Source: a virus
Strand: one strand, 5' to 3'
IMG/VR virus record: IMGVR_UViG_3300024518_001839
Span: 1 to 45,679 of that record
DNA: 45,679 bases
Shown piece after piece: positions 2,249 to 42,081 of this stretch. Both the position numbers and the translations under genes were made by a program. The notes below the pieces were generated by a model. That model was given only the letters and a program-made list of their open reading frames with translations. It made no database searches and had not been told where the DNA came from. Each line of letters begins with the position of its first letter. Position 1 is the first letter of the stretch.

Positions 2249-4372
2249 TTATACCCCCCGCTCTTCTGCTAGGGCTTGCAACGATCCAATTACTTTACCC
2301 GCCTGCTCTGACGTTAGGTTAGACACTCCGGGACTGCGCCCCCCTATCGCTTTGCTGATCCAGTGTCGTGTCTGTGGCGCTACTTTAGCATTAACCGCCC
2401 TGGGTAACAGCCTATCCAAGATCGCTAGTATATACCCTTCTTGCTCACCAGAGAGGATTTCATCCAGTCTGCCTTCGGAATCGTCGCCTGAACCCTGTTC
2501 TGTAGGAGTCGCCGGGACTGAATCCCACACCGTCACTACTTCCATATCATCAAGGGCTTTGTGGACTATCCCGAAGACTTCTGCGTCCCAATGGATAACA
2601 CTCGTGCGCCCCGTGGTCTCCTGCTCCCATGCTGTATGTGCCTTCGGTGTGCCAAACAGAGGTTGTCCCGTGGCGTCCAGATTTGCCTTCAGCCGGGAAA
2701 AATACTCATGGTGGAGTTCTTTCCATTCGGGCGTGTCGCAGAATCTATCGGTATTCACGCCAGTTCCGAGCGGGTCATGGTCTACTATTTCACTATTACC
2801 AGAAGCAGGGTCAGCCATCCCTTGCTCGCCCATCATATCCAATTCCTCGTTGAGTGAGGCGATTATGGCTTGTCCTTCGGTTTCCATCATTGCTTGCATC
2901 TTGAGCAAGTCGCGTCCGATCAGATTCTTTATGCGCTCCTTGAACTTTGGCGATCTAGGGCCGTCGTAAATTTCCAACTTCACCAGCAACTTCCCGATCT
3001 CCCGTCTGGTTGCGCTGGTAACGTCCCACTCTGGATGTCCCGCTGGCTGTTCCTGCTCTTCCGGCGGATCTACCTGGGCATTGCCCCGCCCCGTGCCGTT
3101 CGTGTCGCTCTGAGCGTCTTCTTCTGACTCCGGTGGTTCGTCATCCGCCCCTAGTGCTGCTTTCCAGCCCACAAACATCGCTGGCGTAATGTCTGTCAAT
3201 TCGTAAGTGCCGTCCTCGCGCGGTGCAACACCAAGATTATTGAAGAACTCTGCAAGACTGGTGGTGTCCTTCATATCATCCAGAACGCCTCCCAAGTTCT
3301 CCAAGAGTTCCGCAGCTTTACCACTTCCACCAATAGACTCCCCCCACTCCTTCGCTGCCTGGACTGCTCTCTGTAGCCGTGCATAATACTCGTCTGCATT
3401 CCCGCTCCGGCTCAGACGCTGTGCCAGATCCTCCGGGATGTCCTTGTTGAGTATATCCAGACGGAGGAAATGCGTACACAAGTAAAACTTGAGATCCTTC
3501 TTATCCATGCCGCGCTCAGTCAGCAACTTGACAGCTTTACGCACATCCAACCAGCGCCCGTAATCCTCTGCCTGTATTTCGGTCATAGTACCCGCTAGGT
3601 AGTCCCGATACTCCTTCCACTGCGCTGGCGCAAGCAACGCCCTGGAATCTACGCCAAACATCTCCTTGACTTCCGCTTTCATCCGTACCGCATCCATCGG
3701 GAGATACTCAACCATGAGAAAAGCTGTGCGCCGGAAACGATCCGTGTCGCCTATTTCCTCCTCTTCCTGGAACTCATCAGCCTCCTGCTCTTCCGTGTTG
3801 CCTGTATTTTCCAGTCGCCTCCACATCGTAACTCTCTTGCCTTGTCTGTTGCGCGCCTCGAAAGATTCAGCATGATCATGCCTCCACTTTCTTATAAACG
3901 ACGGCCGCCATAGGTCCTGGGCAATGCCAATTTGTTTGCACAGCCGCATGATTGCGTTGCTCTTAGCCCCCTCCATAGCGTCCCCGTAGGACATGAAGTG
4001 ATCGCCCATCTGGTGCTTTTGTTCCCCCCAAGCGAAAGCCACCGGCTGCCCCTGGACGAACAGATAGAAGCCCCAGAGTATCAAGCCGTCAACCTCTACA
4101 GGCTTCGGGGATTCTGGCACGACCGCCCACTCAAGACCAAACGCCTCGCACAACGTCCGTTTATATTCCACCGCAGGGAGATAGACTATCCCATCCTCCC
4201 GGATCTCCACCAGGTCAGCTTCTACTTTGCCAAACACGATCTTTCGCTGGGCATCTGTGAGTTTGATCGTTCCTGCTGTTTCCAGGAGCATTGCCACCAC
4301 GTCAGAGCGTGGGACTTTATCAAGGGCCATCTTGTCAGGTATTGCGAGTCCTTTTTCTTCTGGGTTGCTCAT
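2249..4372 (-). CDS. Rad52/Mgm101-like single-strand annealing protein with long C-terminus
   Basis: Start at ATG 4372 behind AAAAAGGAGAAACT gives 707 residues. Residues 60-170 read like the Rad52-superfamily core seen in Mgm101-type and phage annealing proteins: YLPAVEYKRTLCEAFG with a following Trp and Pro, GFYLFVQGQPVAFAWGEQ, then YGDAMEGAKSNAIMRLCKQI and DLWRPSFIRKW, ending in basic residues suited to single-stranded DNA. These proteins pair complementary strands in recombination. The rest is much longer than in relatives: an acidic segment (about 180-210), helical regions, a Pro/Glu-rich linker, and two short helical units near 480-530 and at the C-terminus (LTSEQAGKVIGSLQ) of the kind that tails phage replication proteins. 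The family assignment is by pattern, and the long tail is unassigned. Confidence 0.75.
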   Translation of the reverse strand: MSNPEEKGLAIPDKMALDKVPRSDVVAMLLETAGTIKLTDAQRKIVFGKVEADLVEIREDGIVYLPAVEYKRTLCEAFGLEWAVVPESPKPVEVDGLILWGFYLFVQGQPVAFAWGEQKHQMGDHFMSYGDAMEGAKSNAIMRLCKQIGIAQDLWRPSFIRKWRHDHAESFEARNRQGKRVTMWRRLENTGNTEEQEADEFQEEEEIGDTDRFRRTAFLMVEYLPMDAVRMKAEVKEMFGVDSRALLAPAQWKEYRDYLAGTMTEIQAEDYGRWLDVRKAVKLLTERGMDKKDLKFYLCTHFLRLDILNKDIPEDLAQRLSRSGNADEYYARLQRAVQAAKEWGESIGGSGKAAELLENLGGVLDDMKDTTSLAEFFNNLGVAPREDGTYELTDITPAMFVGWKAALGADDEPPESEEDAQSDTNGTGRGNAQVDPPEEQEQPAGHPEWDVTSATRREIGKLLVKLEIYDGPRSPKFKERIKNLIGRDLLKMQAMMETEGQAIIASLNEELDMMGEQGMADPASGNSEIVDHDPLGTGVNTDRFCDTPEWKELHHEYFSRLKANLDATGQPLFGTPKAHTAWEQETTGRTSVIHWDAEVFGIVHKALDDMEVVTVWDSVPATPTEQGSGDDSEGRLDEILSGEQEGYILAILDRLLPRAVNAKVAPQTRHWISKAIGGRSPGVSNLTSEQAGKVIGSLQALAEERGV

Positions 4373-4418
4373 AGTTTCTCCTTTTTGTTCACCATTGATG
4401 GCGATAGGCTGGTTATGT

Positions 4419-5012
4419 TCATTTGCCAGTCTCCGCAAACGCATCCCGATTATGATTTATACGCTCAAGGCGCTCAATCTCTATATTAGCTTTAGCGAAC
4501 TTGCCGCGCCAACTTGCGATCTCGTCGCTCTTGCCTATCTGGATTGTTGTTATCCGCTCTTCCAGCACTTTGGTTTTTTGTGCCTGATCTGCATTCTCCT
4601 CCATGAGTACCGTGACCACCGCTTCCTTTCTCGTCAGTTCGTCAGTGAGCCGGGAGATCTCTGCGTGGAGTATCGCCCCCCAGTCTCCCGCCTCTATCAC
4701 TGCGCGCTTGATCAATGTAGCCCTGGATAGTCCCTCGTGCCAATGCTCGTCCAGTATCGGGTGACGCTCTGGTTCCTCTTGCTTGTCCTCTATGCCAGCA
4801 ACTCTATCTATGCGCCTTTGGAGCGCCTCGCGGTCTTCGTCGTCCGCCAAGTCACTGACCCTGACTGTAACCTTTGTCTTATGGCTATCCCATATCTCCG
4901 TTCCGTCCACCAGCGGAACCAGAGCCAAACACTCAGCCAGAGTCTCCCGATTGTCAGGATGTACCGATACTACCCAAAAGTCGTTAGCAACCTTCTCAAT
5001 ACTGTTCTTCAT
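4419..5012 (-). CDS. Coiled-coil protein of unknown function
   Basis: ATG 5012 follows AGGAGGAAGGGAA and is preferred to GTG 5036. The 197-residue protein has a small alpha/beta N-terminal part (NDFWVVSVHPDNRETLAECLALVPLVDG, then KTKVTVRVSDL), an acidic helical middle, and a clear coiled coil over about residues 120-190 (HAEISRLTDELTRKEAVVTVL and onward). It directly precedes the Rad52-like gene with a gap of 46 bases, so it is probably in the same operon and might be a partner in recombination or replication; that is inference from position only. No enzyme motif is visible. Confidence 0.75.
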   Translation of the reverse strand: MKNSIEKVANDFWVVSVHPDNRETLAECLALVPLVDGTEIWDSHKTKVTVRVSDLADDEDREALQRRIDRVAGIEDKQEEPERHPILDEHWHEGLSRATLIKRAVIEAGDWGAILHAEISRLTDELTRKEAVVTVLMEENADQAQKTKVLEERITTIQIGKSDEIASWRGKFAKANIEIERLERINHNRDAFAETGK

Positions 5013-5050
5013 TTCCCTTCCTCCTGTGTGCTCCACCCGGAGCGTGATTG

Positions 5051-5197
5051 TCAGTTACAATACTCCCAATAGTGACAATCCAGATTGTCCCTCAGCTTAA
5101 TGGCGTGGCCTTTCGTGATACCCCACCTCGTTGTTTCGACACCCTCGATCATGACGATCTCGAAAGGATAAACAGCCACAAGTCCGACTGGCCCCAT
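5051..5197 (-). CDS. 48-residue protein, possibly the end of a shifted gene
   Basis: ATG 5197 (or GTG 5206, three codons earlier, behind AAGGTGAT) to TGA 5051. The sequence VETTRWGITKGHAIKLRDNLDCHYWEYC looks like a folded protein, with patterned Trp, His, Cys and basic residues. The best ribosome-binding site in the area, AAAGGGG, sits instead before ATG 5229, which opens a different frame of 26 residues overlapping this one. A single-base change between the two frames would give one protein beginning ILRKGDMWSV. I cannot tell whether the two frames are separate small genes or one broken gene. Confidence 0.45.
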   Translation of the reverse strand: MGPVGLVAVYPFEIVMIEGVETTRWGITKGHAIKLRDNLDCHYWEYCN

Positions 5198-5229
5198 ACT
5201 GACCACATATCACCTTTTCTTAGTATCAT
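5149..5229 (-). CDS. 26-residue frame overlapping the 48-residue gene
   Basis: ATG 5229 follows the strong site AAAGGGGTAAAAA and reads ILRKGDMWSVWGQSDLWLF before stopping at TGA 5149. The start signal is much better than that of the overlapping 48-residue frame. It may be a leader peptide coupled to it, or the true N-terminus of a frameshifted gene. Confidence 0.35.
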   Translation of the reverse strand: MILRKGDMWSVWGQSDLWLFILSRSS

Positions 5230-5241
5230 TTTTTACCCCTT

Positions 5242-9948: not shown

Positions 9949-10512
9949 TCAAAAGATTTGTGCGCGCATTATCTGGCCGCCAACCACTGGCGGATATAGC
10001 CATATCCTGTCGGCCAGTGGTTGCGTATATCCAGCGCCGGCGGCCTGTACTTCGTACCGTATCCAATACGCTAATTGCCCGTTAATTGTCACCGGAGCGA
10101 AGTCTGAAGGCGGCAATAAGAACAAGCCAACCCGTTCTGCTACCTTGAAATTATCCAGATCCGCAATGGCTCCAAAATATGATGTTAGTGTTGAAAAGCC
10201 CACTCCATTGCTGTACTCAAATAACCCGGTATACGTCCCGCCCCCTGCTGTCCCGACCTTATAAAGTATGCCCACGAATAACGTATCACTGCCTACAAAA
10301 TGCCTATCGTTTGACTGCACGGGAGCAGCCGGGAGCAAATCAACGTCATTAGCGGTGTCTTCGTTTGCCTCTGTCGTCTGATCGGTAAATGTAGCTGATC
10401 CATTATCAAACACGAAATAGTAATCTACAGGCCCCGGGACCAGCTTTGATAACGACTGCTCCGGGGCGGCTGGGATTGTTGGATTGGTCAATGTTGTAGA
10501 CAGAGTAGGCAT
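9949..10512 (-). CDS. Putative tail fibre/baseplate-associated protein
   Basis: A 187-residue, beta-rich, acidic protein lacking cysteine. The segment DYYFVFDNGSATFTDQTTEA near the N-terminus, a middle with glycines and aromatic strands (TYTGLFEYSNGVGFSTLTSYF), and the ending LAYWIRYEVQAAGAG...VVGGQIMRAQIF look like phage beta-sandwich structural proteins. It starts at ATG 10512, overlapping the stop of the gene before. Its place at the distal end of the tail operon supports a host-contact or fibre role; no enzyme motif is visible. Confidence 0.65.
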   Translation of the reverse strand: MPTLSTTLTNPTIPAAPEQSLSKLVPGPVDYYFVFDNGSATFTDQTTEANEDTANDVDLLPAAPVQSNDRHFVGSDTLFVGILYKVGTAGGGTYTGLFEYSNGVGFSTLTSYFGAIADLDNFKVAERVGLFLLPPSDFAPVTINGQLAYWIRYEVQAAGAGYTQPLADRIWLYPPVVGGQIMRAQIF

Positions 10513-11252
10513 TAGACCTCCGGGAAATACATGCGGAATTCGTAGGTAAATGTCAATACTTCCGTATCAAGAACATCTTGGGGCGGCCCCAAGACTTCGC
10601 GGACGAAAGCGTAAACCCCTGCACTATCCTTGAAATACATGCAAACATTGCCTACCGAAATGGTATCCCCTGACGAATTGGTCAGCGCGCGCCCCCATTG
10701 TGCCGACTTAAATCTATCGCCGCCATCAAAGGCTTTTGATAAAGTCCCAATGGCATAGCTTAATTGCCCTGCCCCAGCGCCGTGAGCTATAAGCCCTTGT
10801 ACTACGAAATCATCAAAGGACTCAGCAGTAACACCCGTCCCCGCGACAAATCCATATGAAGTATCTGCCGCTGGTATTCCATATCCCCCGCCAGCCGCAT
10901 TGGGTTCAGGGAATAAGGTTGCCCGGAATCCAGAAGTCAAGACAGACCCCGTGATCCTTTTCAATCCTAGTCCACCCTCAGCGTAAGTATCAGGGATAGG
11001 GGTGTTGTGCGCGGACACGCGTCGAAATAAAGAATACTGAGTGTGGGCGTTATACAGATTACGCGTGAACGAATGTCCATACGAATCCCGGTTGACTCGC
11101 ACTCCCCCCCCCGCTGTAGTTATCTTCAGATTCCACAGCGGCACGATCACCGGCTGGTGAACCCTGCGCCCAAGCTCAACGAGTCGCTGGTATTTGCGCC
11201 CTTCTTCCTGAAACAAATGACGCTCTTTTTCTATTTCTTCATCATAGCTCAT
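10512..11252 (-). CDS. Tail structural protein, paralogue of the next upstream gene
   Basis: The likely start is ATG 11252, eight bases after the upstream stop, giving 246 residues; a longer frame from 11306 would overlap the neighbour by 47 bases. A helical N-terminus (EEIEKERHLFQEEGRKYQRL) leads into a beta-rich body. It aligns by eye with the 231-residue protein upstream: shared features include DS-x-SF/SH with RN-x-YN, a GTG/GTTAES-x-DD segment, HGxxAGxxxY, W-R-x-x-x-NxSGG/SGDxI and a C-terminal VREVL/VRDVL followed by a long strand. The pair therefore came from a duplication. Possible receptor-binding or fibre parts. Confidence 0.7.
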   Translation of the reverse strand: MSYDEEIEKERHLFQEEGRKYQRLVELGRRVHQPVIVPLWNLKITTAGGGVRVNRDSYGHSFTRNLYNAHTQYSLFRRVSAHNTPIPDTYAEGGLGLKRITGSVLTSGFRATLFPEPNAAGGGYGIPAADTSYGFVAGTGVTAESFDDFVVQGLIAHGAGAGQLSYAIGTLSKAFDGGDRFKSAQWGRALTNSSGDTISVGNVCMYFKDSAGVYAFVREVLGPPQDVLDTEVLTFTYEFRMYFPEV

Positions 11253-31863: not shown

Positions 31864-33192
31864 TTATGCTCTAGCTGCAATGGTGACGAAAGGAGCCTGG
31901 GAGTCGCCAAATGCTGGCTTGAACTCAGAAGGCCACCACGGTTGCCCATCCATCGCCGTTATCGCTCTGAACGAAGTATCGCCAAAGTTAAAGTACAGAT
32001 GGATGCTCTGCTCGGTTTCCAGCCCAGCCCCGCCTGCTGGTTCGCCTACGAGATACCCGCCTCGCCAGTCTGCGAGAGTGACATCCCCAGCGTCGCCAAC
32101 TATAGGCATCTGTCCATTGAAGTCAACAGGCAAACCCAGCAACTGGAATGTCGGGCGGCCCTGTATTTGCTGGTTCGCCAGGAAGATACCTGACCCGCCA
32201 GCACCAACCACGACGGAGAGCTTGCCAAGTTCTGGCAAAACCGTCTTGTTAGCGATAAATGAGCCTTCGCCAATATCTCCAGTGGCAGAATAATGCCGCG
32301 CCACCTGATCCAGAATGTTGTCGTAGACGTATGTATCAGCAACCTGTCCTTGAGCTTTGGCTATTTCCAACTTATGGCCACCAGTCTGCAAGATGCCCTT
32401 CGGCTGCTTTACGCCAGTTCCGCGGATAAAACCACGCGATAAGGCGGTATTTAGACTTTGCTCAAACATTCTCTCCAGGATAGGCTCTACGCTGATAGCT
32501 GAGTATTTTATCAACTCCCAGGTGACTCTTACCGAAGCGGCGAGTTTGCGGAGATTTAGTTCGGTCGTACCAAACAGGGCATTCGTCTCAGTGAATGCTT
32601 CGGACTCGCCTTCCCAGTAAAACTGACCATTTCCCATTGTCTTGCCTTGAGACTCATCAAAGCCGTCAATGAACGGAATAGCAGCCTTCCCTGTTTCCAT
32701 CGGAATGACAGTGGCGTTCGCCATAACAGGGTTGTTCTGCCTGGCACGCTTCATGATCTGGGTGACGTATTCGGTAGGGATAAGCGTTCCGCCTGTTGCC
32801 GGGTCACTTGCCGCCTGGTTCGCTTTGCACACCTCGCGCCATCCCTTTAGTTCTGGTGAGGTGTTTTCTCTGTCTTTGCCTTCCAGTGCCAGCTTGACCA
32901 TGAAGTCGTTCATCGACTTAAACCCATGCTCAAGCTGTCCTTCTGTTGAGCGTTCTTCTAGTATTGGCGACTCTTCTGGCTTTTCCAGTTCGGTCATCAA
33001 GGCCTTGACTGTCCCTTCCAATGACTCTTTCTGCGCTTTTAGATCCTGGATGGTTTCGACCTGATAGTCACCTTCCGGCGTTTCCTTTTCAACTACCTCC
33101 ACCGCGTCCTCTATCGTAGGGAGCGCAGCTTCGCTTTTCCCGATTATCTTCCGCAGTTGTTCCTTTTGTGTATCACTCAAATTGAGTGCCAT
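31864..33192 (-). CDS. HK97-fold major capsid protein
   Basis: ATG 33192, six bases after GAGGTGA, gives 442 residues. The N-terminal 100 residues are helical and charged (KEQLRKIIGKSEAALPTIEDA..., then ETIQDLKAQKESLEGTVKALM), the usual delta/scaffolding domain removed by the prohead protease. The capsid body begins near ATGGTLIPTEYVTQI and shows the family patterns: PVMANATVIPMETGKAAIPFI, FGTTELNLRKLAASVRVTWELIKYSA (spine helix region), EQSLNTALSRGFIRGTGVKQPKGIL, and a C-terminal DWRGGYLVGEPAGG...QSIHLYFNFGDTSFRAITAMDGQPWWPSEF. The genes for protease and portal precede it, the standard order. Confidence 0.95.
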   Translation of the reverse strand: MALNLSDTQKEQLRKIIGKSEAALPTIEDAVEVVEKETPEGDYQVETIQDLKAQKESLEGTVKALMTELEKPEESPILEERSTEGQLEHGFKSMNDFMVKLALEGKDRENTSPELKGWREVCKANQAASDPATGGTLIPTEYVTQIMKRARQNNPVMANATVIPMETGKAAIPFIDGFDESQGKTMGNGQFYWEGESEAFTETNALFGTTELNLRKLAASVRVTWELIKYSAISVEPILERMFEQSLNTALSRGFIRGTGVKQPKGILQTGGHKLEIAKAQGQVADTYVYDNILDQVARHYSATGDIGEGSFIANKTVLPELGKLSVVVGAGGSGIFLANQQIQGRPTFQLLGLPVDFNGQMPIVGDAGDVTLADWRGGYLVGEPAGGAGLETEQSIHLYFNFGDTSFRAITAMDGQPWWPSEFKPAFGDSQAPFVTIAARA

Positions 33193-33338
33193 TATATTCA
33201 CCTCGTATTAGTTACGTTGTTATCGTCTCGTTCCCAACGCTCGCTAATGCCTATAATGAACAACGCCTGATATTTACGCCCCGCTAAAGGCTAATATCTA
33301 TAGCAATTCAATATGGCATCTACACGGGCTTATCGTCG
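33193..33338. other. Untranslated gap between protease-ATPase and capsid genes
   Basis: About 146 bases without a supported gene. On the minus strand I find no good -35/-10 pair and no strong stem; weak direct repetition of GCTAAT-containing stretches (around 33245 and 33285) is all that stands out. The ribosome site of the capsid gene lies at its low-coordinate end. Confidence 0.5.
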
Positions 33339-35630
33339 CTATAGGTAGCCACCTCTAGCGACATACTTCAGTTGTTCGGCAGTCAGCGGCTTGTCTTTCT
33401 CCGCCTTTTCTTGGCCATCTTGATCCAGTAGCCATTGCGCCATTTCCGGCGTTATTGCGTCTTCCTCTTCCCTGTTTCTCAAGTCTTCCATATTAAACAA
33501 TTCTTTGGTCTGCGTCGTACTCAGCCCCTCCACGAGTTCCATCTGGTCGCTCATACGGAGTAAGCTCTCGATTAGCGCCTTCCCTGCATCCAGCCCTTCA
33601 TCTTCCGCTATGCCCTGGGAGTATTCCACCAGATGTTTGATATGCGCTCCAGAGAAGCCTTCCGTGCTGTCCACAAGCACCCCCAATGTCTTAGCGTCAA
33701 CATCATCAGCCCATAGCTTAAACATCTCATTGCGCTGACCGGCATCAGGGAGGTCAAATAACAATATATGATGGAATCTGCCCGGCCGGTCAATGAGAGC
33801 TTTTGGCAATCTATCTGGGTGATTCGTGGTCAATATTGTCATCAAGCCTTTATTCTGCTTGAGTCCGTCCAGTTCTGTTTTGAGCATATCTTTATCAAGC
33901 GACGTGTCCACATCTTCCATGAATAGCACAGTCGGAGCCAACTTGCGCGCCATGTCAAACGCCAGCGATAAAATATATGTGGGTATTCCATACATAAAGT
34001 CTCTCGCAGATACCCAAATAAACGTTGATTCGGTGTCGTTCATGATCGTTCTGCCTGCCTTCGTTTTGCCAGTCCCAGGAGGCCCCACAAACATTAGCCC
34101 CCGACTGTTTCCGTCCGCTTTCTGAGTGATGGCCATCGACTTGATGATGGCTTGCTTATCTTTGGGTGCGATAACCAGTTCGCCCCAGGCGTCGTCAGTC
34201 TCATCCAGGAACTCCCCAGAGAGCGCGAACTTCTCGCCCTTGAGCATATGGTTGGCGTCAGCTTCGGCATGTATCGCTGCCATGATCTCGTCGCTTTTCT
34301 CTTCGTTCTCATTACTGGTCACTAGTGTGAATTCTAGCCCACGGTATCCCGGAGAAAAATCTTTGATGATGGACCGATCCCCATCGTGGCAATATTCGCT
34401 CCCATTTGTCAGATACCGCTTACGTTTCTTTGAGTTCAACTGTATATATGAGCGTATTGGCGGGGATTCTTCGCCTCTATACGAGAATCGGCGTGTATCA
34501 TCTACGGTCATGTCGGAAGTCACGATCCGGATCGCTTCCAGATAAGTACCTAATAGCGGGGAGGGTATGTCATAAGTGTTGACATATATTTCTTTAACTC
34601 GGCACTCAAGGAACTTGGTAAACAGCGCATAGCGAAATACTGTATTTGCTTCGTCAAATTTTGCGATGTCGAATGATTTGGTATATGCGGGGTTCCATGT
34701 CTCTTTCAACATGGACTTGCCTGGCTCGCCATTCTCGGCAGCCACTTCGATTGCGTTGGCGTCCAACAATTCAGACAATGCGTTTCTAGCTGTAGTTACT
34801 ATGGTAGTGGTTTTTTTCGATAATGTGCGGCCCTCTTTGAGTTCTGTATCGTCTATATAGTCCATGCGATGGATGTCTACGACGTCTTCCGTCTCGTCGT
34901 CTTCTGCAAGCTTTTTCTCCGGCATATACAGACTTGCGCTGTCTGCACTCAATAGCCCTTTACTCACAGCTATATTGATCGCTTCCGGGTTGGATGGTAT
35001 GGGAACGTCTGAATATTCCAGTAATATCCACTCAGTATATATGCGTTTTGGATCGGCTTCATTTGGTCTGTCGCCAGCCTTGACGCCCTTCATCTCAAAA
35101 GACTCTATGCGGCGCTCTCGCCAATTCTTGACTGCATCATCCCAGTTGTTGTCTGTTGGAGTGACCGACTTCACGGGAATGAAGCCGATAGACTTGGCCA
35201 GTGGATGGCCGTCTCTTTGGTATTGAAGCACGTCCTCGGCTTTGGCGTGCTTTGCGTATATGGTCTTTGCGCGGATCTCCACTGGGTTCTTCTCTGGATA
35301 CACCTTGACCCATTTAGCAGACCCCAGAGGAAGCTCCCCGTAGCTATGCCCAAACGGGACCACCGGGTTGAGCTTGAAATGCTTCCCGTCCATGCCCTCC
35401 GGCAGTACTACCTCGCTATCCCGGTCAACGCCTAACGTGCTGATCGTGGATATGACAGACCGCTCGCCTTTATTGAACACCATATCTGACGGCGTGATCC
35501 CCTTGCGTACATACTCCACGTCGCCATCTATGCCAGCCGCTTTGACGCTTGCAGCCAGCTTTGGGCATTGTGACTCTATATCGCCGAATACGTCGCTGAG
35601 TTTAAGTCGCCATGTAACCAAGTCCATCAT
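33339..35630 (-). CDS. Prohead protease (S78-like) fused to a BCS1-like AAA+ ATPase
   Basis: One uninterrupted 763-residue frame. Residues 1-230 look like an HK97-type prohead protease: ERSVISTISTLGVDRDSEVV, catalytic-type His95 in FGHSYGE, Ser147 in AKSIGF, and LLEYSDVPIPSNPEA at 203-217, where Glu205 stands where the third conserved residue usually is. Residues 240-420 are a linker domain of unknown fold. Residues 430-690 form an AAA+ module close in pattern to BCS1-type ATPases: KFALSGEFL and WGELVIAPKDK before Walker A GPPGTGKT (516-523), Walker B VLFMEDVD (568-575), sensor TTNHPDRLPKALIDRPGRF (601-619) and GFSGAHIKHL. It lies between minor head protein and capsid gene, exactly where the protease belongs. 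Inferred: ATP-driven delivery of scaffold to the protease, or coupled capsid expansion. Confidence 0.88.
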   Translation of the reverse strand: MMDLVTWRLKLSDVFGDIESQCPKLAASVKAAGIDGDVEYVRKGITPSDMVFNKGERSVISTISTLGVDRDSEVVLPEGMDGKHFKLNPVVPFGHSYGELPLGSAKWVKVYPEKNPVEIRAKTIYAKHAKAEDVLQYQRDGHPLAKSIGFIPVKSVTPTDNNWDDAVKNWRERRIESFEMKGVKAGDRPNEADPKRIYTEWILLEYSDVPIPSNPEAINIAVSKGLLSADSASLYMPEKKLAEDDETEDVVDIHRMDYIDDTELKEGRTLSKKTTTIVTTARNALSELLDANAIEVAAENGEPGKSMLKETWNPAYTKSFDIAKFDEANTVFRYALFTKFLECRVKEIYVNTYDIPSPLLGTYLEAIRIVTSDMTVDDTRRFSYRGEESPPIRSYIQLNSKKRKRYLTNGSEYCHDGDRSIIKDFSPGYRGLEFTLVTSNENEEKSDEIMAAIHAEADANHMLKGEKFALSGEFLDETDDAWGELVIAPKDKQAIIKSMAITQKADGNSRGLMFVGPPGTGKTKAGRTIMNDTESTFIWVSARDFMYGIPTYILSLAFDMARKLAPTVLFMEDVDTSLDKDMLKTELDGLKQNKGLMTILTTNHPDRLPKALIDRPGRFHHILLFDLPDAGQRNEMFKLWADDVDAKTLGVLVDSTEGFSGAHIKHLVEYSQGIAEDEGLDAGKALIESLLRMSDQMELVEGLSTTQTKELFNMEDLRNREEEDAITPEMAQWLLDQDGQEKAEKDKPLTAEQLKYVARGGYL

Positions 35631-35662
35631 ATCACCTCTAAATGGCCCGGCTTACAAGCAAA

Positions 35663-35711
35663 GAAGACGCCCGGCTAAGGGCAAACTTTCCTTAATAAGC
35701 CGGGCGTCTTC
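35663..35711 (-). terminator. 14-bp hairpin upstream of the protease-ATPase gene
   Basis: Arms 35663-35676 and 35698-35711 (GAAGACGCCCGGCT and its exact complement) enclose 21 bases. On the minus strand the stem is followed by TTTGCTTG, only weakly T-rich. It comes about 120 bases after a good promoter, so it would end or attenuate a short transcript from there as well as messages coming from the packaging genes. Confidence 0.7.
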
Positions 35712-35879: not shown

Positions 35880-36119
35880 CTACAACAAGTTAATAAATGT
35901 CACCGGAGTAATGAACGGCATCACTGCGCCTTCGTCAGGTATATCCTCAAATTCTTCGCTCTCAAATGTCATATACAATAACCCTCTATCAAAATCCCAT
36001 CGAGTCTCTATGTACTTAGCGTCTTCCGGCAATGCGTTCTCGATCTTGACGTGCATTTCGTCTTGCGTTACCAAGCACGCCCAGAATTGTGGGCTAACTT
36101 CCAGCCTCGCTCTTTTCAT
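35880..36119 (-). CDS. 79-residue head accessory protein
   Basis: ATG 36119 follows AAGGAGGCGGC, and the upstream stop overlaps as ATGA; this makes it preferable to a start at 36161. The protein (KRARLEVSPQFWACLVTQDEMHVKIENALPEDAKYIETRWDFDRGLLYMTFES...) is a small beta domain with an acidic end. A protein of this kind often follows the Mu F-like gene in phages. Function unknown. Confidence 0.78.
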   Translation of the reverse strand: MKRARLEVSPQFWACLVTQDEMHVKIENALPEDAKYIETRWDFDRGLLYMTFESEEFEDIPDEGAVMPFITPVTFINLL

Positions 36120-37168
36120 GCCGCCTCCTTGAGCTTTCCGCTTGCCAGGGCGCATCTGCAATTTATAACCTCTTCCGCCTGCCCACCTGGATCATGTGGG
36201 TGTAGCAGCCCATTACTAAACCGCTCTTTCATCTTGCGCTCCTGGCCGTCTATCCTGTGCGTGTCTCTGACTTTTGCATCACGGCTATCAATCCATACCT
36301 TTGTTATCACGATCTCGCTTTCAATATAGCCTTCGTGCGTTGCCTGGTTCGACGCGCCAAGTATTTCAGTTTGCGCGATCATGTCTGTACGCGATCCCTT
36401 CGCTATCTTGAACACGTCGGCGACACGTTGCGATATTTGCGTGATGCTCTCGCCTTTATCAAACCCCTCTGCAAGCGTCTTCCTGAGCTTGCGTTGAGTC
36501 GTCTGATTCACCTCGTCACTGAACTTGAATACCCGCTCTTTGAGTATCCTCTTAGCCCTGGGGTTCGTGACGTTAAACGCCGCCTCAATACCTATCTCCG
36601 TGAATGCCGCCTGTCCACCTTCTTCGTATGCCAGTGTAATGAACGGCCGTCCTACCTTCTCGAAAGCCGGTATCCAGACTGCCAACTTGAATATGCTGTT
36701 GACGTATGACTCAGCGGCGGCTTCCGCTTCTTCGCTGGCTTTCAACAGAACTGCGTCGCATAAATGGATCGTCTTGGTAAATTCCTGCTTGGTACTGGTC
36801 AAGAGACTCACTCTTTCACACGCCACCTCAAGAATCGTAGTCCTGTGAATAAAATTGGTTGCAGGGAATATATCAGTAATCACCCCAATGCCCTCGCTGT
36901 GCTGTACTTCGTCGCCTATCTGCGCTATTACCTTAGCACCTGCCTCTCTGGTGTCTGGCACAGGCTTGCCTCTCATTGCACTTAAAACAGCCTTCTTTTG
37001 CTTCTCAAACGCCTCTACTAACTTAGGCTTAAACGCCTCCTCAGTCTTCTCCACGCGCTTATTGAATATGTGCCACTTAGCAGTGAGTTCGGCGTCAAGC
37101 TCCGCCTCTTCTTCTGCGAGTAGCTCTGCCGCCATCGTGACTATGAGGTTGTTGGTGTTAAGTGACAT
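36116..37168 (-). CDS. SPP1 gp7 / Mu F-like minor head protein
   Basis: 350 residues. The C-terminal half has the family hallmarks: a helical region with ERVFKFSDEVNQTTQRKLRKTLAEGFDKGESITQISQRVADVF, then RTDMIAQTEILGASNQATHEGY, then KVWIDSRDAKVRDTHRIDGQERKM and the closing LHPHDPGGQAEEVINCRCAL, with the conserved Cys pair in NCRC. In SPP1 and Mu these proteins associate with the portal inside the head and help DNA exit. The N-terminal half is helical (AAELLAEEEAELDAELTAKWHIF...). The start ATG overlaps the upstream stop (TAATG). Confidence 0.93.
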   Translation of the reverse strand: MSLNTNNLIVTMAAELLAEEEAELDAELTAKWHIFNKRVEKTEEAFKPKLVEAFEKQKKAVLSAMRGKPVPDTREAGAKVIAQIGDEVQHSEGIGVITDIFPATNFIHRTTILEVACERVSLLTSTKQEFTKTIHLCDAVLLKASEEAEAAAESYVNSIFKLAVWIPAFEKVGRPFITLAYEEGGQAAFTEIGIEAAFNVTNPRAKRILKERVFKFSDEVNQTTQRKLRKTLAEGFDKGESITQISQRVADVFKIAKGSRTDMIAQTEILGASNQATHEGYIESEIVITKVWIDSRDAKVRDTHRIDGQERKMKERFSNGLLHPHDPGGQAEEVINCRCALASGKLKEAA

Positions 37169-38538
37169 TATAGACTCATTGTTTTGGTGTTTATATCGTC
37201 AAGGTTACTGTCCGTAGGGACAAATGTCATTGCTTGCAAACCGGGTATGCCCAGGTGTACCAGCAAACCCATCAAGTCAATCCAGTCGCCTTTGAGTGCG
37301 TCCGCTATCTTATACGATTGCGACTTATTTATCAACGCCCTGGCCTTATCCGCCAACTCAGGCGCGGCGGCTTGTAGCTTCTTTTGCGCTGGTGAATCTA
37401 CATAGGAGAGCGCGGCATCTTCGTCTATTCTGACGAGTCCCTCACCCGCACCCACTGGCCGCCAAACCCACCGCTGCGCCGCTATGTCCTCCGGCTCGTC
37501 TGGCTGTTCTGCGATCCCCCGATTGTGACCGTCAATAATAACTTGAGCGTATTCTTCCGTACTCACTTCCCCTATATATTCCTGGACTGGATTATCCTCG
37601 TATATCCTCCACCCGCCACCCGTCACAGTCTCAGCGTATGTCCATTTTGGGGCGGGCGCTGGCTCACCATCATCGTTATCGTCCTCTGGCTGCCCGGCCA
37701 GGTGGTGAACACTAACATCGTCTACACGAGTCATGTCAGCGAAATACACGCCAATCTCGCCAATCGTGGCGTGGCTGCGATACAGATTCTTGACGTTGCC
37801 CGTGAGCGTTCCTTTGGTATAATTAGTATCGAACTCAACCTGCACCTCTCGCCTTGCTTCCATCGCCGCGTCCAGCTTGTCCCATATTGCGCTTGCTTCA
37901 ATATGAGCATCCTTTGGTTCGTCTGGGGCATCCACAACCGCGAGGACTTCAACATGCGTGATTGAGCTAAGAGGTACATAGCAGTTGTCGTCAAAGTGGA
38001 TACCATCAGGCCCATCTTCTTCGTCGGGAGCGATTACCTCGATGGTTCCAGTATGCGAAAAACCATTTGCATATTCGACCGTAACCCATTTCTGCTCTAG
38101 TCTTGCGTGTTCCAGCTTCTGCAAGAGCGATTCGAGAGCCTCGCCACAGGGTGTCGTGGTGTCCACTGGCTCATTCCCAGCCTCAGCCACAGTCAACCGC
38201 TCTTCGAGTTCGGCTATGGACTGTCGTAACTCTTTCACCGCCATCTCCTTGATTTTAGCCAGCAACTCCTCGTTTACGCGCCGGGTCATGACCGAGGGAT
38301 CTGTACCACATATAACGGTTGTGCTATCTGAAACAACAGCCTCGAGGTCGTTATCTCGCTCATCGTCGCGCCCTTTGGAAATGTCAAAAGTAATGTATGC
38401 CCCGTTAGGTCTCCCAGATCTTCTATCTGCACCTTTATCTCGCCCATGTCGCCCCCCATCACCGCCAATAGTCAGCTTGACTTGATCGCTCACATCCAGA
38501 TACAAGCGACTATCGAATAAACGTCTTGACCATTCCAT
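37168..38538 (-). CDS. Unknown head-module protein with two similar beta domains
   Basis: ATG 38538 follows GAGGGGGCGTGAGT (456 residues); GTG 38544 is also possible and would overlap the portal stop. About residues 137-203 and 219-283 look like two copies of a small beta-barrel unit: a leading helix, V-x-VE-[YF], a G-T strand, an I-x-F/Y-x-D strand and a final strand (THVEVLAV and DDVSVHHL), like Sm/SH3 barrels. Before them is a coiled coil (LLAKIKEMAVKELRQSIAELEERLTVAEAG); a Pro/Ala linker and a mixed C-terminal part follow. It stands between portal and Mu F-like genes, where no such protein is usual. Function unknown. Confidence 0.72.
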   Translation of the reverse strand: MEWSRRLFDSRLYLDVSDQVKLTIGGDGGRHGRDKGADRRSGRPNGAYITFDISKGRDDERDNDLEAVVSDSTTVICGTDPSVMTRRVNEELLAKIKEMAVKELRQSIAELEERLTVAEAGNEPVDTTTPCGEALESLLQKLEHARLEQKWVTVEYANGFSHTGTIEVIAPDEEDGPDGIHFDDNCYVPLSSITHVEVLAVVDAPDEPKDAHIEASAIWDKLDAAMEARREVQVEFDTNYTKGTLTGNVKNLYRSHATIGEIGVYFADMTRVDDVSVHHLAGQPEDDNDDGEPAPAPKWTYAETVTGGGWRIYEDNPVQEYIGEVSTEEYAQVIIDGHNRGIAEQPDEPEDIAAQRWVWRPVGAGEGLVRIDEDAALSYVDSPAQKKLQAAAPELADKARALINKSQSYKIADALKGDWIDLMGLLVHLGIPGLQAMTFVPTDSNLDDINTKTMSL

Positions 38539-38540
38539 AC

Positions 38541-39986
38541 TCACGCCCCCTCAGCCCTTGTTTTAGCCCTGGCCATCCGCATAGTCTCAACCACCGTGTC
38601 GGACAACGCCTCTGCGCTCTGCTGCCCTGCCATGCTTAGTGGAATCCTATTGCCATCAACCCACGGCTCCGAAGACAGCCCCCCAAATGGTTTTAATCCG
38701 TCTCTTACGCGCAGTTCGTCCGGCGTCTTGATCCCGAACTTGAGATCAATCGCATCACGTTTTAACTGAAACGCTTTATCTTCCAATACCGGGTTATCGA
38801 ATGAGATGATAATATCGTCCGAATACTGCGGAGCCAGTTGAGCGTTCAATGCCTCTGTCTCAAGCGTACAAAATGCCGCCGTAGAGAATAGAGCGAACTG
38901 CACCAATGACGTTTCCAGCCCTGCCCGCGTGCTGCTCTGTCCCGTCCACATAGCCTCTGGTATGCCAAAGTTTCGCAACATCTCACGTTGCAAGCCCTCT
39001 CTGGAATCGCCATAGTCAAGTTCCCTGGGAGTCATGCCCAGCGGCTTCGGCTCCACGTTTTCCATTACCATCCATTTTCCCGCGTTTCTTACCCCAGTAT
39101 ATGCTGCCTTAAATTGCTCGCTCAATTTCTTTTGCTGGTCTTCTGTCGTCCGCCCCGTAGTGCTAAGTATGCCGCCTAGATTGGCATCATTCTTGAATAT
39201 CTTCTGCTCAAACTGCTGTATCGCCTCCGCTAGATTGAAAGCGTCAGCTGCCCCGGCTACGTCGCCTCTGCCGTGGAACTGATACTGCGCTCCCGGAGCG
39301 TACAGTCTAAAGTGAATCACATCTTCGGGCGGGAACACGACCTCTTTCGAGCCGCGTTTATAGACGTACTCTTTGATCATCGTATTTTCATCAGGTCTGA
39401 TCCGCATATACTCAGACGGAGCTATCCAGATAGCAGAAGGAACGCCCAGTTTATTCCTCAACAACACCCAATAAGCATCGCCAGTTAGTGACATATAGGC
39501 GGTCGTGACGAACTTTAACCCGAAATTATCCCATGCGCTATTGACGTTTCTCAAGAGACCAACAAGTGGATGGCCACCCACTATCTCTTCCAGGCTTTCT
39601 GCTTGCGCCAGTGGTGTACCAGGCGTCGCTTTGCTAATCATCTCTTTGATGCGCGACTCTGGAACCTCTCGCACTTTGGTATACTTGAAATTGCTCTTGA
39701 CGCCCGGCTCCTTTGTCTTGTAGACACGCAACGGTGTAGTGGCAAGTGAATTACTGACCAGCTTCACCATGCCGTGTATATTGCGCTTATTCGCCTTGAT
39801 CTGCGCCAGTGGGTTATCAGGATCCAAGACCGTCCCACTGATGCCCGTCATCATGTTAATGAAAGGCAATATACCATCGTGAGAGCCGTCAAAGCGTATA
39901 GCCTTGCTGAACATGCCGCCAAAGAGTGGATCCCAGTATGCTCGCCTCAAATTGTCTATACCGACTGTTAGTATACCTCTGCTCAT
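38541..39986 (-). CDS. Portal protein, HK97 family
   Basis: ATG 39986, five bases after AGAGGA and just past the upstream stop, gives 481 residues. Family features are visible: N-terminal RRAYWDPLFGGMFSK, the stem region with KANKRNIHGMVKLVSNSLATTPLRVYK, then TTAYMSLTGDAYWVLLRNKLGVPSAIWIAPSEYMRI, then VVFPPEDVIHFRLYAPGAQY and the signature AWTGQSSTR-like MWTGQSSTRAGLETSLVQFALFSTAAF, and a C-terminal LKFGIKTPDELRVRDGL. The portal forms the dodecameric channel for DNA packaging and attaches the connector. It lies two genes after terminase. Confidence 0.95.
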   Translation of the reverse strand: MSRGILTVGIDNLRRAYWDPLFGGMFSKAIRFDGSHDGILPFINMMTGISGTVLDPDNPLAQIKANKRNIHGMVKLVSNSLATTPLRVYKTKEPGVKSNFKYTKVREVPESRIKEMISKATPGTPLAQAESLEEIVGGHPLVGLLRNVNSAWDNFGLKFVTTAYMSLTGDAYWVLLRNKLGVPSAIWIAPSEYMRIRPDENTMIKEYVYKRGSKEVVFPPEDVIHFRLYAPGAQYQFHGRGDVAGAADAFNLAEAIQQFEQKIFKNDANLGGILSTTGRTTEDQQKKLSEQFKAAYTGVRNAGKWMVMENVEPKPLGMTPRELDYGDSREGLQREMLRNFGIPEAMWTGQSSTRAGLETSLVQFALFSTAAFCTLETEALNAQLAPQYSDDIIISFDNPVLEDKAFQLKRDAIDLKFGIKTPDELRVRDGLKPFGGLSSEPWVDGNRIPLSMAGQQSAEALSDTVVETMRMARAKTRAEGA

Positions 39987-39987
39987 G

Positions 39988-40236
39988 CTATCCTCTCTCA
40001 AGCCGCCATACACTCAGCTTTTTCCTTTGCACCTTGCACCACCAATACGCCACGCTGGCGGCTGTACGCGTAAGCCGCCACAGTTTGCGATACCATCGTA
40101 CAGGTGCGAGTGTCAAGGTATTCGCGGAGACTTGCTTTATTTTAACTCTTTCGCCGACGCCAGACGCGCCAGTCACAACAAGAATATCGCCCGGCTTAAA
40201 GCCATCAGTGTTGCATGTCGATTTGTTTTCCACCAC
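39988..40236 (-). CDS. 82-residue basic protein between terminase and portal
   Basis: Starts at GTG 40236 (a second GTG follows) behind GAGGGGGAC, seven bases after the terminase stop, and ends two bases before the portal start. The first half has an SH3-like strand pattern (FKPGDILVVTGASGVGERVKIKQVSANTLTLAPV), with the turn GDIL-x-V; the second half is strongly basic with many Trp, Arg and Lys (WYRKLWRLTRTAASVAYWWCKVQRKKL). It might bind DNA or the portal. No family recognised, but placement is tight. Confidence 0.65.
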   Translation of the reverse strand: MVENKSTCNTDGFKPGDILVVTGASGVGERVKIKQVSANTLTLAPVRWYRKLWRLTRTAASVAYWWCKVQRKKLSVWRLERG

Positions 40237-40243
40237 GTCCCCC

Positions 40244-41536
40244 TCACAACAGCCATATCGCTGGCTCGTCTTCTTTGTGGAAACGAGAGAATAACGCGTA
40301 TCTCTCGGCGTCTTGTAAGTGGTCGTTTTCCTTCACCGGGTCTTCCTTCGTATGCCCGTTCTTGTCAACCTTGCGCTGGTAACTCCGCTTCTCTTTCAAG
40401 TGGTTGAGGCTGGTGGTCAGTATCTTCACTCGCGTTCTGTTTACCAGGTCGATACCCGGCACAACCGAATTATTAGCTGGATGGATATTGAAGCCAGCAT
40501 CATATATTTCATCTATCAATTCTGGCTCTGATGGGTCTGCGAATATTTCATCGTTCTTGTCAACCCCCAGCCACTCCATCAAGGCGATCCTATCTGAATT
40601 ATTTAGCTCCGCTTCATAGATTACTTCTTTCTCGTAAACAGCCCCATCCTTCAAGCCTATCATAAGCATAGCTGTTGGGCTGACATATCCGAAATCCAGA
40701 CCATAGAACACCTCGTCAAAGGTGTCTGGCCATTGGTCTTCGCTTATCTCTTCGTAGTTGACGTATATACGCTGCGCCAGCGCTGTCCATAGCCCCTGGT
40801 CATATATACTGTACTTCTCCGGGTCGCTGTCCTTTAGAGCAGCAAGCATGGCGACGTACTGGTCATCCACCCACTTGTTATCCCGCCATGTGGAATGAAT
40901 GGCAGTCGCATACATCTCGATTTCTTTGTCCAACTCCTCAATAGTGATTGTTTTCATCACACGAAAACTATTCCCGTTGCTCCATGATTCTAGCTTAGGG
41001 GCCTTTTCTGAATCAAAGAACTCATCATTGATCCAGCTTGCATCATCCATAGGATTAAAACTCATGATAATCTGGAAATACGATACTATATCCTCACCGC
41101 GCAAACGAAGGTCAAGCTGTCGAAAGTCGTTCAATGTAAATTGTGTCGCCTCCTCCATCCAGACGCCGGTTATTCTCTCGACACTTTTCACTTTCTCCGG
41201 ATCGTCAAGTCCGCCGCATGATATAAACTGATCACCCGGCCAAGTATACGACAGATCTGTTTTGTTGGACTTCACACCTTCCAGTCCCCAGAGGTCTATA
41301 TATATCTTGAATAGACGAAATATCGACGCCTTGACTGCCGGGGAGGTCTTGCGCAGACACAAAAAACCCTCGTGATAACCGTGCAATACTGCTTTCTCGA
41401 TTCTCAAGAGGATCTTCTGAGCTACTTCGTGACTCTTGCCACTACCGCCGCCGCCATACGGAAGCAGATACCGGTCGTGGCATTTTACCAAGTCCCATAA
41501 TTGGTCGTTGCATGTTTCCGGCATATCTATTTCCAC
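40244..41536 (-). CDS. Terminase large subunit
   Basis: 430 residues with all key parts of a phage DNA packaging motor. ATPase: Walker A GGGGSGKS (28-35), Walker B GVWMEEA (124-130) with the glutamate pair E128/E129, and motif III SFNP (159-162). Nuclease: Asp281 in GLDFGY, Asp334 in FADPSEPEL and the final HLQDAERYAL region (Asp405/409), matching the RNase H-like metal-binding acids of the PBSX/Terminase_3 type. It cuts concatemeric DNA and drives it through the portal. The start at 41536 overlaps the stop of the small subunit by one base. Confidence 0.96.
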   Translation of the reverse strand: MEIDMPETCNDQLWDLVKCHDRYLLPYGGGGSGKSHEVAQKILLRIEKAVLHGYHEGFLCLRKTSPAVKASIFRLFKIYIDLWGLEGVKSNKTDLSYTWPGDQFISCGGLDDPEKVKSVERITGVWMEEATQFTLNDFRQLDLRLRGEDIVSYFQIIMSFNPMDDASWINDEFFDSEKAPKLESWSNGNSFRVMKTITIEELDKEIEMYATAIHSTWRDNKWVDDQYVAMLAALKDSDPEKYSIYDQGLWTALAQRIYVNYEEISEDQWPDTFDEVFYGLDFGYVSPTAMLMIGLKDGAVYEKEVIYEAELNNSDRIALMEWLGVDKNDEIFADPSEPELIDEIYDAGFNIHPANNSVVPGIDLVNRTRVKILTTSLNHLKEKRSYQRKVDKNGHTKEDPVKENDHLQDAERYALFSRFHKEDEPAIWLL

Positions 41537-42081
41537 TAAATATCATCCTCGGTTATCTTGTCGCCAAAGTTGAATGAGACACCCGCGCCGCTAAGTTTCG
41601 TATGGCTATCAGGTTGGCCTACCAACAATAGCACCAACTTTGCCAGATCAATCTTTGCTTTAATTAGTCTGACTTCCATATTAGACAAGCGATCCATATC
41701 TTCTATTGACTGAACTACTATAGGATTCTTTGGCTTTGGGTTCTTAGCATTGGGGATTCTCTTGTAGGCAGTCCCAAAAACAGCATCAACGTACGATGTC
41801 TTGATTTCTATATTATTGAATCCTGTTTCGCACATATCCAGAAAGCCGGAGATCAATTCTTGCGCGTCCAACTTCTTTTCTGCTTCCAGTTCCTCGACTG
41901 CTTCTTGTATCGGCTCTCTCGCTCTTTCTACCCAATCAAGGTCTTTTTCCCACCTTTGCGCGGTTCTGACATTTTTGCCAAAGTCTACGACAAACTGCGA
42001 CAAAAACTCCTGAGACATGCCGCCCATTTTCATGTAGAGCTTGAAGGCATCAAGGTGTATGGCTTTCTCAACTTTTGGCAT
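41536..42081 (-). CDS. Terminase small subunit
   Basis: 181 residues, directly before and coupled to the large subunit. The N-terminal 70 residues include a helix-turn-helix-like region (LDAFKLYMKMGGMSQEFLSQFVVDFGKNVRTAQRWEKDLDW) for recognising the packaging site; a long helical part follows (AREPIQEAVEELEAEKKLDAQELISGFLDM), then a linker with NAKNPKPKNPIVV and the C-terminal helix (RLSNMEVRLIKAKIDLAKLVLLL). No single family stands out, but order and architecture fit. GGAGGAGCGGGGA precedes ATG 42081. Confidence 0.8.
   Translation of the reverse strand: MPKVEKAIHLDAFKLYMKMGGMSQEFLSQFVVDFGKNVRTAQRWEKDLDWVERAREPIQEAVEELEAEKKLDAQELISGFLDMCETGFNNIEIKTSYVDAVFGTAYKRIPNAKNPKPKNPIVVQSIEDMDRLSNMEVRLIKAKIDLAKLVLLLVGQPDSHTKLSGAGVSFNFGDKITEDDI

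Follow-up and report, generated by a model that had tools for sequence, protein, structure and literature searches.

The DNA studied here is an IMG/VR record from an uncultivated phage, and the window is this whole stretch of 45,679 bp. On its minus strand, a single ORF starting at ATG 35630 encodes a protein made up of an S78 prohead protease, a flexible linker, an undescribed middle domain (MID) and an AAA+ ATPase (Table 1). An earlier note on this DNA had placed a protease/AAA+ fusion in one gene at 33339-35630. These coordinates were borne out, with minus as the coding strand, and the fusion itself was confirmed as a 763-aa ORF that recurs in independent contigs.

In transcription order, the window encodes the small and large terminase subunits, the portal, an unknown ORF, the MuF-type protein, the fusion and the HK97-type capsid protein. 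The unknown ORF (37168-38544, 458 aa) gave no significant Pfam or PHROG match, and its counterpart differs in size and content among related loci. Directly upstream of the fusion gene, at 35666-35708, a strong GC hairpin (GACGCCCGGCTTA...TTAGCCGGGCGTC) is followed by TTCTTT; together they form a terminator-like element separating MuF from the protease gene. An Rfam search of the window gave no match.

Elsewhere in the window, 2249-4444 encodes a 731-aa protein whose Mgm101-type recombinase domain (PF06420, 9.7e-34) is accompanied by a long extension at the C-terminus, and 1656-2228 a protein with tandem NSGNS-type pentapeptide repeats (PF01469). An RlaP-type RNA-repair nucleotidyltransferase (PF10127, 6902-7876) adjoins a YspA/SLOG-type protein (PF10686, 6425-6868), possibly as a conflict or RNA-repair pair. 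An archaeal host, prompted by the Cdc48-like core of the ATPase, is not favoured, since a sigma-70 region 4 protein is also encoded in the window.

Table 1. Coordinates of the fusion gene, its parts and the neighbouring head genes in the window
Feature	Position	Strand	Basis
S78 protease - linker - MID - AAA+ fusion gene (P0001), 763 aa	33339..35630	-	same architecture in 58 distinct proteins
Shine-Dalgarno-like GAGGTG, 5' of ATG 35630	35633..35638	-	sequence
S78 prohead-protease domain, residues 55-222	34965..35468	-	family HMM; triad invariant
Catalytic codons H95; S147; E205	35346-35348; 35190-35192; 35016-35018	-	triad invariance
Linker, low-confidence (disordered), residues 237-311	34698..34922	-	structure model pLDDT
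MID, undescribed middle domain, residues 312-508	34107..34697	-	invariant residues; model pLDDT 84
AAA+ ATPase core and lid, residues 509-705	33516..34106	-	PF00004 5e-19; PDB profile search
Walker A GPPGTGKT, residues 516-523 (K522)	34062..34085	-	conserved in relatives
Walker B LFMEDVD, residues 569-575	33906..33926	-	alignment of relatives
Sensor 1 and arginine fingers TTNHPDRLPKALIDRPGRFH, residues 601-620	33771..33830	-	N603, R615, R618 invariant 65/65
C-terminal tail, low confidence, residues 706-763	33342..33515	-	structure model
HK97-type major capsid protein, N-terminal delta-like extension, capsid domain 137-429	31864..33201	-	PF05065 1.2e-39
MuF-type head morphogenesis protein	36116..37168	-	PF04233 6.9e-14
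Portal protein	38541..40013	-	PF04860 4e-44
Terminase large subunit	40244..41536	-	PF04466 4.9e-38
Terminase small subunit	41536..42081	-	phrog_6299 1e-5

A structure model of the full protein (mean pLDDT 68) predicted the S78, MID and AAA parts reasonably and left the linker and the tail disordered. The pLDDT stays under 50 from residue 237 to residue 345, so low confidence extends into MID. Within the linker lies a KEGRTLSKK helix motif (residues 265-290, modelled helix 272-290). No transmembrane helix was found in the fusion protein, whose best 19-residue hydropathy, 1.25, falls within the AAA core.

The protease part

In the window protein, a PF04586 search stayed below the Pfam threshold, and Pfam reports the AAA domain only. 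The N-terminal part was assigned to S78 by its alignment with fused relatives that pass the Pfam cut-off of 21 bits (loci L001, 25.7; L021, 24.9; L017, 25.0; L095, 60.5) and by the invariance of H95, S147 and E205. The protease partners encoded as separate genes at L022, L063, L066, L107 and L117 are also above the cut-off, and L001 matched PHROG 80, 'head maturation protease', at 4e-19. Across 58 fused and eight stand-alone S78 partners, the triad was kept in H 65/65, S 66/66 and E 66/66, the lower H count being due to a contig end that cuts one sequence. All three residues proposed earlier as candidates (His95, Ser147, Glu205) thus proved correct; that the N-terminal half might have some other fold had been raised as well, and by homology it is S78.

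The order TerL-portal-MuF-fusion-MCP was found in all relatives with enough contig, in a comparison whose MuF profile also matched portal genes. Two side observations concern the capsid genes. In one clade (L012, L013, L014, L017, L027, L028, L030, L031, L033, L036, L040), two capsid-family genes stand in tandem downstream of the fusion. At L005:9536-11709 the capsid gene is apparently interrupted: a short ORF rich in coils is followed by one that is endonuclease-like (10150-10815) and then by a capsid ORF whose first part is missing. An Rfam search of L005 detected no intron.

The ATPase module and MID

The Pfam AAA domain (PF00004) covers residues 512-626 with 69.5 bits, against a cut-off of 21.2. 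A complete AAA+ module had been described from the sequence, and Walker A, Walker B, the TTN sensor (N603) and DRPGRF (R615, R618) are all present. G516, G519, G521, K522, T523, E572, D573, D575, N603, R615 and R618 are invariant in the 65-66 aligned sequences; T520 of Walker A varies, being N or C in some relatives. In the alignment, Walker B has 'ED' where Cdc48 has the usual 'DE'. In the alignment to Cdc48, the two arginines of DRPGRFH fall in the arginine-finger region, and a ring would therefore be expected. Judged from conserved residues, both the protease and the ATPase of the family look intact.

The label 'BCS1-like', given to the ATPase at first, holds for the fold and not for the sequence of the AAA core. 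By sequence, the core alone is closest to Cdc48/p97, AFG2 and FtsH-type domains, and Bcs1 is absent from its best 60 matches in the PDB profile search. By fold, the full model matched YjoB best (E 4e-18) and Bcs1 next (E down to 2e-16), with p97 lower. The YjoB alignment spans about 420 columns with an rmsd near 12 A; this exceeds the length of the AAA core, and MID must therefore be included. MID modelled alone (pLDDT 84) retrieved START-like folds at E 1e-3 and Bcs1 at rank 35, none of them a confident match, so kinship with YjoB and Bcs1 rests on the whole-chain match of the mean-pLDDT-68 model. 'YjoB/Bcs1-like' is hence moderately supported as a description of domain order and overall fold, and does not amount to proven family membership.

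MID gave no match above threshold in Pfam and no credible match among PDB sequences. Two different MID queries found nothing in 50,697 annotated phage records, the second even at E 10. We rejected on these grounds that MID is a known domain. Its residues R380, E388 and P390 are invariant in 68/68 sequences, and we consider MID a new conserved domain.

Could the ring thread capsid delta domains or scaffold into the attached S78 protease, as FtsH, Lon and ClpXP thread their substrates? The protease shares one chain with an intact AAA+ module whose core sequence is closest to threading ATPases of the Cdc48/p97, AFG2 and FtsH types. However, pore loop 1 (positions 546-552) is not conserved over 65 relatives (Y547 in 14/65, G548 in 6/59). 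An 'MYG' near the pore-loop position is retained in the window's own clade, and for that clade threading stays conceivable. YjoB and Bcs1 are the best folds, and the long disordered linker between the two parts argues against a rigid coaxial arrangement of protease chamber and AAA+ ring. The S78 domain is moreover exchangeable among relatives, and eight loci carry split pairs. We thus regard an ATP-driven unfoldase-protease as unlikely, and the analogy with FtsH, Lon and Clp drawn in the earlier note is weakened by the pore loop, the nearest folds and the exchange of S78.

Fused and split relatives

IMG/VR was searched with the protein and then with whole-protein and MID profiles, which gave 2, 7, 15, 33 and 85 relatives in turn; a MID-AAA profile search contributed a few more. 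After removal of identical MIDs, 69 distinct MID-AAA proteins were kept, forming 49 single-linkage clusters at 70% identity. They come from IMG/VR and one MAG contig. This last is the single match in GTDB genomes (L008, in a Cloacimonadota MAG, on a contig that at 3.4 kb is too short for a host assignment), and a plasmid search returned generic AAA ATPases only.

S78 lies in the same ORF as MID-AAA in 58/69 cases (57 by profile, plus L095 by Pfam); collecting phages with the same fusion, a check that had been proposed, thus yielded 58 distinct fused proteins. In another 8/69 (L022, L063, L066, L107, L114, L116, L117, L125), S78 is a separate gene directly downstream of MID-AAA, with gaps of -6 to +42 nt, and the remaining 3/69 are cut by a contig end. 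Where the flank was visible, no MID-AAA was found without a fused or adjacent S78. The split loci include Mu-type capsid genes (PF10124) and unrecognised capsid candidates (L107, L117), which indicates that the association of S78 with MID-AAA crosses head lineages. That the two parts are fused in some phages and adjacent in others is the strongest evidence that they serve one process. A likely role in head maturation, as first supposed, is supported by the conserved gene position and by the eight split neighbours.

An assembly artefact joining two genes, or a decaying fusion without function, was also considered. The source records are metagenomic contigs, and a few comparisons (L034/L035) could involve mosaic assemblies. 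Nevertheless, the architecture recurs in tens of independent contigs with invariant catalytic residues; we rejected this explanation, whose probability we consider negligible.

Several relatives carry further segments. A YPNEHACRL-type accessory motif sits between the S78 and MID parts of L007, L008, L042, L050 and L051, and N-terminal to MID in the split genes L063 and L066. L007 and L008 have an IPYSxHGD segment between protease and ATPase. In one clade (L012, L013, L014, L017 and others), the chain continues past the AAA part with a four-cysteine zinc-ribbon-like segment (CxxCG...CxxC). The stand-alone MID-AAA proteins at L107:4540-7143 and L117:5323-7182 have an N-terminal stretch weakly like an ATP-dependent DNA ligase domain, at 24-25 bits with PF01068, just below the cut-off.

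Modular evolution of the fusion

Within the window's clade, identity is 70-85% in MID, 79-91% in AAA and 31 to 82% in S78. The S78 and MID-AAA trees conflict: the MID-AAA tree unites the window, L001, L002 and L003 in a 100/100 clade, and the S78 tree scatters them, long branches making fine detail unreliable. In the pair L030 and L033, MID, AAA and the core of the capsid protein are 91-93% identical, and S78 is 40% identical. Between the window and L001 or L003, DNA similarity begins at about the first MID codons and continues through the capsid gene. L034 and L035 are identical over 2,957 nt from just past S78 (S78 at L034:1276-1896; L035 fusion gene 2277-5234), with about 60% DNA identity in S78 and about 95% in the upstream MuF gene. 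Either a mosaic assembly or a very recent swap of domains accounts for this last pattern. The position of the KEGRxLS helix motif varies as well: in the window's clade it comes after S78 and before MID, and in most other relatives past the AAA part, so this helix module occupies two places in the chain. Taken together, these comparisons indicate that the S78 domain has been exchanged among relatives, with MID-AAA apparently travelling with the capsid gene.

Over 16 loci, MID-AAA identity rose with that of the capsid (Mantel r 0.88, and 0.86 with S78 held fixed), and S78 identity followed the capsid only weakly, at r 0.42 (0.19 given MID-AAA, p 0.06). Because the AAA end adjoins the capsid gene, physical linkage confounds the MID-AAA correlation. 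The correlation fits an ATPase that would be dedicated to the capsid protein, with simple linkage as the alternative.

A different role would be that of cargo, in which S78 addresses the AAA+ part into the prohead and self-cleavage in the linker frees it, to be ejected with the DNA and act in the next host, in host takeover or anti-defence. The better conservation of MID-AAA relative to S78, and the replaceability of S78, as of an address tag, would agree with such a role. It has a precedent in other phages such as SPN3US, whose prohead-processed proteins are packaged and ejected (PMC7411985, PMC10052503). However, MID-AAA is a gene of its own in the eight split cases, where it bears no such tag; it also tracks the capsid gene, and toxin- or defence-like features were not found in it. 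We therefore consider the cargo role improbable.

Another explanation is that the ATPase acts solely as a cytosolic chaperone before assembly, helping the capsid protein or the protease itself to fold, the fusion merely securing co-production and dosage. The YjoB/Bcs1-like fold, the adjoining capsid gene and the split gene pairs are in its favour. Yet the fusion is retained in 58/66 classifiable cases although its protease part has been swapped, which suggests that tethering matters. This makes a purely cytosolic chaperone a poor candidate.

Discussion

Our results suggest that phages in which this ATPase is fused to the protease, or encoded beside it, use ATP energy as an aid in building or maturing their capsids. 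HK97-type head maturation is usually described with assembly and proteolysis as its sole power, ATP being spent by the terminase motor. In our best reading, to which we give about even weight, the fusion protein would be a capsid-assembly chaperone or remodeller tethered to the maturation protease, and not a threading unfoldase of the Clp/FtsH kind. A flexible, recombination-prone linker would join the S78 prohead protease to a Bcs1/YjoB-type AAA+ ring ATPase, with arginine fingers acting in trans to assemble about six or seven subunits into the ring. MID would form the vestibule of this ring for folded head proteins, the most likely client being the capsid protein, whose gene travels with MID-AAA. 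ATP-driven and probably concerted motions could hold, position or remodel these clients in the growing prohead, or load them along with the protease. The tethered protease would then be able to cut the head proteins so held, and the AAA part might later be released through self-cleavage in the linker.

More tentatively, a widespread and unrecognised class of phages may build such a Bcs1/YjoB-like motor for folded proteins into the prohead, on the protease, with ATP driving assembly, scaffold processing or expansion before packaging; we think this possible, though somewhat doubtful. If true, a conserved AAA+ ring bound to this protease in about 49 lineages would make the assembly of the capsid itself a step that uses ATP, and ATP-driven capsid maturation, once proved, would be a new kind of process. 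The repeated exchange of protease domains before a fixed ATPase also amounts to an unusual natural experiment on assembly enzymes built from modules.

No published description of an S78-MID-AAA fusion was found in the full texts searched, which were mostly open-access journal papers. The S78 and AAA+ halves are both of known kinds; MID is undescribed. The protease shares with the S78 HK97-type prohead proteases (PF04586 / PHROG 80) the H-S-E triad and the motif spacing, and like theirs its gene comes after portal/MuF and before an HK97-type capsid gene, which encodes an N-terminal delta-like extension. Unlike typical S78 proteases, the fusion has a long C-terminal MID-AAA+ extension, and the window domain has diverged too far to reach the Pfam threshold. 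The portal, protease and capsid genes of HK97 itself are expressed in laboratory E. coli (PMC10275583).

YjoB has a chaperone role. The B. subtilis protein (PDB 7w42, 7w46) is the best whole-chain fold match, covering MID and AAA+; it is cellular and has no protease part, and no PDB chain is detectably similar to MID in sequence. Bcs1 (PDB 9gsn, 8tby, 6uks and others), the second-best fold, has in common with the fusion the order of middle domain and AAA+. It bears an N-terminal transmembrane helix, whereas none was found in the fusion protein. In Bcs1 the canonical pore loop is missing, and the mechanism by which it moves folded cargo is a concerted one (PMC11143374; PMC12219900). FtsH, Lon and ClpXP likewise couple an AAA+ ATPase to a protease, but they thread substrates by conserved pore loops, and pore loop 1 is not conserved in the fusion family.

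Phages offer two further comparisons, both from one article (Viruses 2021;13:63, PMC7824862). The MoxR AAA+ - vWA-metallopeptidase pair of jumbo phages similarly brings an AAA+ ATPase and a peptidase together in proposed virion assembly. It differs from the fusion in belonging to another AAA+ clade and in having an unrelated peptidase on a separate co-chaperone. For BCS1 orthologues of jumbo phages, a part in head assembly or packaging has been proposed, and the passages on them describe no link to a prohead protease; here, the ATPase is encoded within or adjacent to the protease gene. Through this physical link, the fusion makes the head-assembly role proposed there for BCS1-like ATPases directly testable.
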